Shown here one piece after another: positions 14,924 to 59,509 of a stretch of 64,000 nucleotides of DNA. The first letter of the stretch is position 1. Each line of letters starts with the position of its first letter. The notes below the pieces were generated by a model. The model had not been told where the DNA came from. It did not search any database and saw only the letters and a program-made list of their open reading frames with translations. The position numbers and the translations under genes are program-made. Origin of the DNA: Ignavibacteriales bacterium (GTDB lineage: Bacteria > Bacteroidota > Ignavibacteria > Ignavibacteriales > Melioribacteraceae); assembly GCA_026390795.1 (NCBI GenBank), contig JAPLFG010000003.1:2480001-2544000 (forward strand), written 5' to 3'.

Positions 14924-14951
14924 GTAGAGACGCCATATATGGCGTCTCTAC
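14924..14951. repeat. 28 bp perfect palindrome, REP-like
   Basis: GTAGAGACGCCATA (14924-14937) is followed directly by its exact reverse complement (14938-14951). It stands alone in the spacer between the ettA start and the cupin stop. The outer GTAGAGACG/CGTCTCTAC arms recur, with one mismatch, inside the RAYT transposase gene at 59208-59235, which suggests a REP element mobilised by that enzyme family. There is no U-tract that would make it a terminator. Confidence 0.8.
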
Positions 14952-58957: not shown

Positions 58958-59509
58958 CTAAGACAATTCACAAATGTTGTCATGTTTTTTTTCTTCTAAG
59001 TTCCACTTTAATGGATTTTGTTCAATGTATCTTCTGATGTTATTTAATTCTTTTTCGTCACGGATGATTCTCTCATAAAAACGTGGCTGCCATGAAAATT
59101 TGAGATACCCAATTTCATGGATTCTTTTTGAAGTTGCGGATTTATATGAACGTATAATTGTTGAGAGTGAACCGAATTTTGGAGTTATTTCAGAAAATTT
59201 GTTATTTGTAGAGACGTTGCGCGCAACGTCTTTACTGTTATTTGTTATAATAATTATTCCATGAAGATGGTTCGGCATAATAACAAAATAATCAAGTTCT
59301 ACATTCGATCGGATCAATTTTGTCTTTAACCATTCTTCTTCTGCAATTTGCCCCATTCTATTTTGGACCATCTTTTCACTTTCAATATTCCCGAAATATT
59401 CAGTATGGTCTTTGGAATTTATCGTTACATAATACCACCACGGGTTTGAATAATCCCACCCATTTAGCCTCGTCGATTCAATTCGATATTGATTTTGGAA
59501 TAGCGTCAT
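58958..59509 (-). CDS. REP-associated tyrosine transposase (RAYT)
   Basis: Y1 HUH-type transposase-like protein, 183 residues. The HUH pair is MPNHLHG (His81, His83) and the catalytic tyrosine is Tyr161 in RRYIEQNPLKW. The N-terminal RLNGWDYSNPWWYYVTI fits the RAYT group. These enzymes act on REP palindromes and are domesticated rather than flanked by insertion-sequence ends; none is seen here. Residues about 92-101, after the HxH strand, are encoded by an in-frame REP-like palindrome. It lies 39 bases after rmuC. Confidence 0.9.
   Translation of the reverse strand: MTLFQNQYRIESTRLNGWDYSNPWWYYVTINSKDHTEYFGNIESEKMVQNRMGQIAEEEWLKTKLIRSNVELDYFVIMPNHLHGIIIITNNSKDVARNVSTNNKFSEITPKFGSLSTIIRSYKSATSKRIHEIGYLKFSWQPRFYERIIRDEKELNNIRRYIEQNPLKWNLEEKKHDNICELS
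59208..59235. repeat. REP-like palindrome inside the RAYT gene
   Basis: GTAGAGACGTTGCG (59208-59221) is followed by CGCAACGTCTTTAC (59222-59235), its reverse complement with one mismatch. The outer arms match the palindrome at 14924-14951. The surrounding frame stays open through it. Confidence 0.8.

Follow-up and report, generated by a model that had tools for sequence, protein, structure and literature searches.

An in-frame REP-like palindrome in a loop of a RAYT-like gene, with counterparts in related genes and in T9SS sorting-domain tails

The window analyzed here, a stretch of 64,000 nucleotides from the genome of an Ignavibacteriales bacterium, carries at 58958..59509 on the minus strand a gene for a protein of 183 amino acids that resembles the RAYT (TnpA-REP) enzymes by Pfam, NCBIfam and PDB matches. 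The HUH motif (H81, H83) and the tyrosine Y161, which a preliminary description of this DNA had read as intact, are invariant in an alignment of 18 rows. The protein scores 27.4 bits with Pfam Y1_Tnp (cut-off 23) and 64.2 bits with NCBIfam REP_Tyr_transpos, below the cut-off of 80 for that model, which is matched by 40 of 40 aligned relatives at E <= 0.001. The AlphaFold model of the protein (mean pLDDT 85.6, pTM 0.81) has as its top structural match PDB 4er8 (Foldseek E 3.8e-07), a REP-associated tyrosine transposase in complex with a REP hairpin. The predicted product is an HUH/tyrosine nuclease that acts on single strands and belongs to the RAYT (TnpA-REP) kind, having the Y1 HUH/tyrosine nuclease fold of that group with HUH and Tyr in place. 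The original definition of RAYT, as given in the available part of its source (PMC2817692), is a gene flanked by REPs. At this locus (L010, 1.5 kb on either side of the gene) no other palindrome with an arm score >= 10 was found, so that no flanking copy is left; we therefore call the gene RAYT-like, meaning that it is related in sequence and fold and is not a REPtron.

Within the gene, at 59208..59235, lies an in-frame REP-like palindrome of 28 bp with one mismatched pair, which the preliminary description had noticed and an inverted-repeat search recovered as the sole inverted repeat between 58700 and 59800. Its arms (59208-59221 and 59222-59235) are 93% complementary with zero spacer. The GTAG foot is intact on the plus strand and the coding strand has GTAA, i.e. 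in the pattern GTAG...TTAC one foot is changed by one base. By codon arithmetic the palindrome encodes residues 92-101, in agreement with the earlier reading, and its placement just after the HUH strand likewise holds in the AlphaFold model: the loop of residues 91-110 (codons at 59180..59239, minus strand) connects the HUH strand (81-88) with helix 115-132. This loop is predicted to be disordered, with a mean pLDDT of about 55 and values below 50 for residues 96-101. The earlier readings of a RAYT-like enzyme and of a REP-like palindrome are also upheld, with the NCBIfam model match and 4er8 as best structural match.

An in-frame palindrome in a RAYT gene is a real feature, already published as a kind. 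In the available text of Quentin et al. 2018 (PMC6006769), in-frame REPs within the gene, between HuH and Tyr, are given as a unique feature of TnpA-REP subclass 2.4, which the authors equate with RAYT group 4 of Bertels et al., and it is suggested that the internal REPs affect activity little. The window gene shares this arrangement, and its branch has in common with the subclass, as far as that text describes it, double-foot REPs, a variable insert after strand b3 and the WQ motif. The motifs given there are NH[IFV]H, WQ and YIxNNP, compared with NHLH, WQ and YIEQNP in the window, and the REP feet are GT[AG]G...C[TC]AC, compared with GTAG...TTAC. The window gene differs in lacking a flanking REP and in its one altered foot. 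The E. coli TnpA-REP (PDB 4er8) is similar in fold and in having a GTAG-footed hairpin, according to the parts of the literature available on it, but is only 22% identical over the structural alignment and its REP stem is bulged; the same parts of the 4er8 literature contain no mention of a REP inside the E. coli gene.

The preliminary description had called for a scan of the genome for further copies of the palindrome, and the result is mixed. No second copy of the window's stem was found at up to 3 mismatches, which makes the internal palindrome unique in the genome as regards its stem, while the outer stem recurs in two other RAYT genes. The pattern GTAGAGAC-N12-GTCTCTAC (<= 1 mismatch) occurs at 12 places in the 4.08-Mb genome vs. 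0 for a reversed control, and with 3 mismatches at 29 places vs. 11. Enrichment of the 9-mer GTAGAGACG was considered and rejected (40 matches vs. 36 for the control): the signal above chance is the whole palindrome rather than the 9-mer. A literature search with GTAGAGACG returned no title on REPs among the matches listed. Three of the 12 places lie within RAYT genes (the window's, one on contig C4 and one on C5), 8 lie in no ORF of >= 70 aa, and one is covered by a 120-aa frame overlapping the gap between two opposite-strand ORFs. The other 11 places have only feet and outer stem in common with the window palindrome, and at least 2 of them (C2:156788 and C3:1629586) have imperfect cores. A scan of this genome for GTAGGG-type elements, with 1 mismatch allowed, found none.

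Several further palindromes of this genome may be described here. The window itself holds a second one, the perfect palindrome GTAGAGACGCCATATATGGCGTCTCTAC at 14924..14951 between ORFs, with the same feet and outer stem as the internal one; the same 28 bases also adjoin the RAYT gene on C4. A further RAYT copy, on C3, is split over two frames, and the centre of its palindrome is interrupted by 21 bases (L042:1473-1521) that hold a second hairpin, as seen by comparison with L071. Another perfect palindrome on C4 (L040:2030-2057) is followed by about nine 22-bp tandem units (L040:2071-2269) whose consensus starts with the 3' foot GTCTCTAC. Within 5 kb, C4:201688-206799 has eight mostly single-footed palindromes of the form TTTGAGAC...GTCTCTAC (2-3 mismatches), a pattern class for which the control also gave 11 matches genome-wide at 3 mismatches; locus L041, which covers most of this region, has no RAYT match.

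In order to see how the palindrome is distributed among related genes, we collected relatives of the window protein, which occur in 29 of the 39 genomes covered from its genus, family and order (own genome included). The loci comprised part of the matches in those genomes plus 80 named loci, the best 80 of at least 564 matches to an alignment containing carriers, and the set thus leans toward the window's branch, consisting of its kin and of matches to a carrier-containing alignment. The best titles among the named loci were Ignavibacteriales, Stygiobacter and Melioribacter; carriers came further from records titled Bacteroidetes, Moranbacteria, Ardenticatena, Nitrospira and Zixibacteria, and also Planctomycetes, Spirochaetes, Desulfobacterales and Aquaspirillum. 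Of 161 loci entered, 158 matched and 130 had both motifs in one frame, giving 127 distinct genes after removal of 3 duplicates. The 28 loci dropped because the HUH and W motifs were not in one frame were broken, cut or divergent, and some of them had internal palindromes. One such locus, L082 (G038:C1:557700-560400), has four tandem half-copies ahead of its internal REP, resulting in a repeated VETGHA peptide, and its gene is flanked on one side by an identical palindrome, whereas the palindrome on the opposite side has an altered foot.

A strict element (27-29 nt long, with GTAG as one foot or both and with 10 pairs formed among the outer 11) is present in the same loop of 70 of the 127 distinct intact genes, with both feet in 56 of these and a single foot in 14, and 57 genes have no such loop element. 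In the preliminary description a copy within the ORF had been considered unusual; it is instead common in this branch, as well as published (PMC6006769). Elsewhere in the stop-to-stop frame a strict element was found in only 3 of the 127 genes, in two of them within 15 bases of the 5' end of the frame, and codon-shuffled loops yielded 0.0 strict elements per 127 genes (20 rounds). Under a looser rule palindromes occur inside the loop of 95 genes and outside it in 27, at a density of 102 palindromes in 15,741 bp of loop vs. 31 in 58,737 bp of the remaining sequence. The stretch from HUH to W is shorter in genes lacking a palindrome (median 55 vs. 62 codons; Mann-Whitney p 0.004). In the 32 palindrome-free loops the residues of the window's insert are mostly absent, with traces in L042, L124 and L135, and this comparison with homologues, proposed in the preliminary description as a possible refutation, does not refute its reading. 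Three RAYT genes (L018, L067 and L074) have two different palindromes in one loop and one open frame.

What is kept in the loop is a DNA palindrome, not one peptide. The strict element is read in two reading frames, in 38 and 32 genes respectively. Selection by feet and spacing alone (GTAG-N20-CTAC) found the element in the loop of 42 of the 127 genes and elsewhere in 1, and in the 36 distinct sequences picked by their feet pairs 9-14 are formed in 210 of 216 cells, vs. a mean of 80 and a maximum of 104 in a control in which the 3' letters were dealt anew and the relatedness among sequences remains. This count replaces an earlier one of 227 out of 235, withdrawn because the elements had been chosen for pairing. 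The absence of the third frame was also withdrawn as evidence, since that frame gives an in-frame TAG and the filter demanded open frames. Extreme DNA conservation of the palindrome was rejected as well, having come from pairs picked for similar palindromes; in the unpicked inner stems of 36 AGAC-type carriers, 2.05-3.08 of 6 bases match at 40-69% protein identity.

A function of the encoded peptide in the protein, to which the palindrome would be incidental, might be suggested by the residues that recur within each frame (VETxxxxSL and RRDVARNVST) and by the exclusive use of the first frame in the eight sorting-domain tails described below. Nevertheless, RAYT genes have unrelated peptides at this one place, depending on which of the two frames is used, and the region is the least confident part of the AlphaFold model, so we give this explanation hardly any credence. 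It is also conceivable, though very improbable, that the palindrome acts as an mRNA hairpin slowing translation or decay of the message: the predicted fold of -12.9 kcal/mol forms the palindrome as a hairpin (z -2.95, with 4 of 200 shuffles as stable), but any palindrome folds in this way, and its place, its feet and the cognate stems would all be left unexplained.

The stems were compared with a tree of the enzymes, built without the loop and with 65 of its 124 inner branches open. The outer stem requires 16 changes on this tree vs. 27-34 when shuffled, and the inner stem 53 vs. 59-65 (0 of 200 shuffles as low in both cases), whereas the frame requires 20 changes vs. 18-29 (13 of 200 as low) and presence 33 vs. 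32-50 (1 of 200 as low); the sister genes L118 and L120 are unlike in stem and frame. The agreement between stem and tree is compatible with plain inheritance too. Internal stems resemble flanking stems beyond chance. In 54 genes with palindromes both inside and within 400 bp, 8.1 of 12 arm bases match vs. 5.9 when shuffled (maximum 6.5), and when the comparison is kept to a single outer type, agreement over the six inner bases is 3.67 vs. 2.54 (maximum 3.30, 0 of 1000; 33 genes). An outer type is common to the internal and a flanking palindrome in 33 of 42 typed genes and none is in 9; the three palindromes of L060, one internal and two flanking, are identical over their 28 bases. An internal palindrome has no neighbour within 400 bp in 40 of the 127 genes, the reverse applies to 24 and neither is present in 9. 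No two near-identical genes were found of which one has the element and the other lacks it, and the insertion event itself is therefore unseen. Taken together, the cognate stems and the changes of frame and presence suggest that the enzyme's own action may bring the palindrome to its gene.

One possible explanation, close to the binding of its own gene or mRNA raised in the preliminary description, is that the internal REP is a putative site for binding or nicking of the gene by its own product, either as feedback or to keep a reserve for reseeding REPs. Near-perfect pairing despite changing stems, the cognate stems and the lack of a second copy of the stem in the window's genome would be in keeping with such a self-target. 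The element is often absent, however, its presence changes repeatedly, and the same palindromes occur in the tails of secreted proteins, where such a role is improbable; after the finding of these tail copies we lowered our estimate for a self-target, and now regard it as unlikely.

These tail copies came to light in 296 genomes drawn from the phylum, of which 3, the window's own included, contain the window palindrome at <= 1 mismatch. Three further copies from this draw are in frame in long non-RAYT ORFs, each with a T9SS type A sorting domain at its end that clears the cut-offs of both NCBIfam and Pfam; one, in the tail of a protein from another genus (L186:1501-1528), is the window's exact 28-mer. 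In the genus, perfect-foot palindromes occupy 49 places in 10 of 12 genomes. RAYT loops account for 15 of these places and T9SS tails for 8; 26 fall outside any ORF of >= 150 aa, and none (0 of 49) falls in another ORF of that length. Counting the one from another genus, tail copies are located in L186:1501-1528, L187:1501-1528, L185/L231, L209, L215, L216 and L220. All of them, the 8 of the genus included, are in one frame, VETxxxxSL, and occur at two sites, ahead of VTLKVYD-like and PSGVYFY-like stretches, both of which are filled in one protein (L215) by different palindromes; the tails belong to unrelated proteins. Six of the 7 tail frames reach the NCBIfam cut-off, the exception being L209 (68 aa), whose tail assignment comes solely from an in-house four-sequence profile. 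The window's own genome has 61 sorting-domain tail matches, 58 of them over the cut-off, amounting to roughly 14 kb or 0.3% of the genome, and 8 of 34 non-RAYT places in tails would therefore greatly exceed what an even spread gives, provided that other genomes resemble this one, although the 8 copies are not 8 independent events (three are on one contig of G005 and two in one protein). The own genome also holds a decayed REP (L102:1501-1528, C2:135839-135866; 11 of 14 pairs), in frame in an ORF of >= 570 aa that likewise ends in a sorting domain scoring over both cut-offs. An earlier view, by which only decayed copies would stand in frame outside RAYT genes, was withdrawn when the intact tail copies were found. 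No report of REPs in T9SS tails was found in the available portions of the literature (PMC3534657 among it), and we claim no priority; the addition beyond published work is where such palindromes sit in coding DNA.

The tails bear on the possibility that the palindrome is a pure passenger, i.e. that REPs survive in any loop tolerating about nine extra residues, unlinked to the action of the enzyme. It fits well with the 8 of 49 genus palindromes in tails of unrelated proteins, with the exact 28-mer in a foreign tail and with the decayed copy in the own genome, as well as with the little effect favoured in the accessible text of Quentin et al. (PMC6006769). Di Nocera et al. 2013 (PMC3733652), in the part available, report in-frame intragenic REPs in many genes, and their GTAG/CGTC REPs and the Rickettsia palindromic elements are similarly short palindromes kept in frame; those REPs are spread over genes of various kinds, many of which serve replication and repair, whereas among long ORFs of the window's genus only RAYT loops and T9SS tails are occupied. 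The word "sorting" is absent from the main text of that paper. On the other hand, a single gene family has 15 of the 49 places in its loop; tails aside, none is in another long ORF, and the internal stems are no random draw from the flanking stems of other genes. The tail copies raised our estimate for a pure passenger, which we now put at slightly less than an even chance, and also led us to trim a little the weight given to an mRNA hairpin and to the reading preferred below.

We consider it probable that the palindrome represents a REP accommodated in frame by a disordered surface loop of a putative RAYT-type nuclease, where it is tolerated and recurrently lodged. This reading is favoured by the distribution in the genus (RAYT loops, T9SS tails and no other long ORF) together with the exact 28-mer in a foreign tail, and it draws as well on the common position in many relatives, on the upkeep of the DNA palindrome rather than of one peptide, and on stems that follow enzyme kinship and flanking palindromes. 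Tolerance by the loop is supported by the AlphaFold model and by the sorting-domain tails, and the earlier suggestion of a tolerated loop insertion gains weight from the copies in unrelated secreted proteins. The palindrome may be taken, by analogy, as a GTAG-footed hairpin of the kind that studied RAYTs bind and cut in single strands, according to the available part of PMC8266576. REPs would land in, or be swapped into, such loops repeatedly, frame-breaking copies would be lost, and the preference for RAYT loops would come in part from an enzyme that works close to the gene encoding it.

It is possible, if rather doubtful, that the REP is a coding-compatible cassette, stop-free in two frames, that persists in RAYT loops and two T9SS sorting-domain loops, the coding copies being reserves that reseed REP families after intergenic loss; this idea was reworded, and rated somewhat lower, once the tail copies were found. 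If true, the RAYT copy would be a self-encoded target travelling with its enzyme. If the internal copies are cognate, each gene would record the hairpin that its enzyme handles, and pairs of enzyme and substrate could be read from genomes and would be open to testing. That coding copies cluster in RAYT loops and in secretion-signal tails offers a concrete handle on the distinction between passenger REPs and REPs kept by the enzyme.
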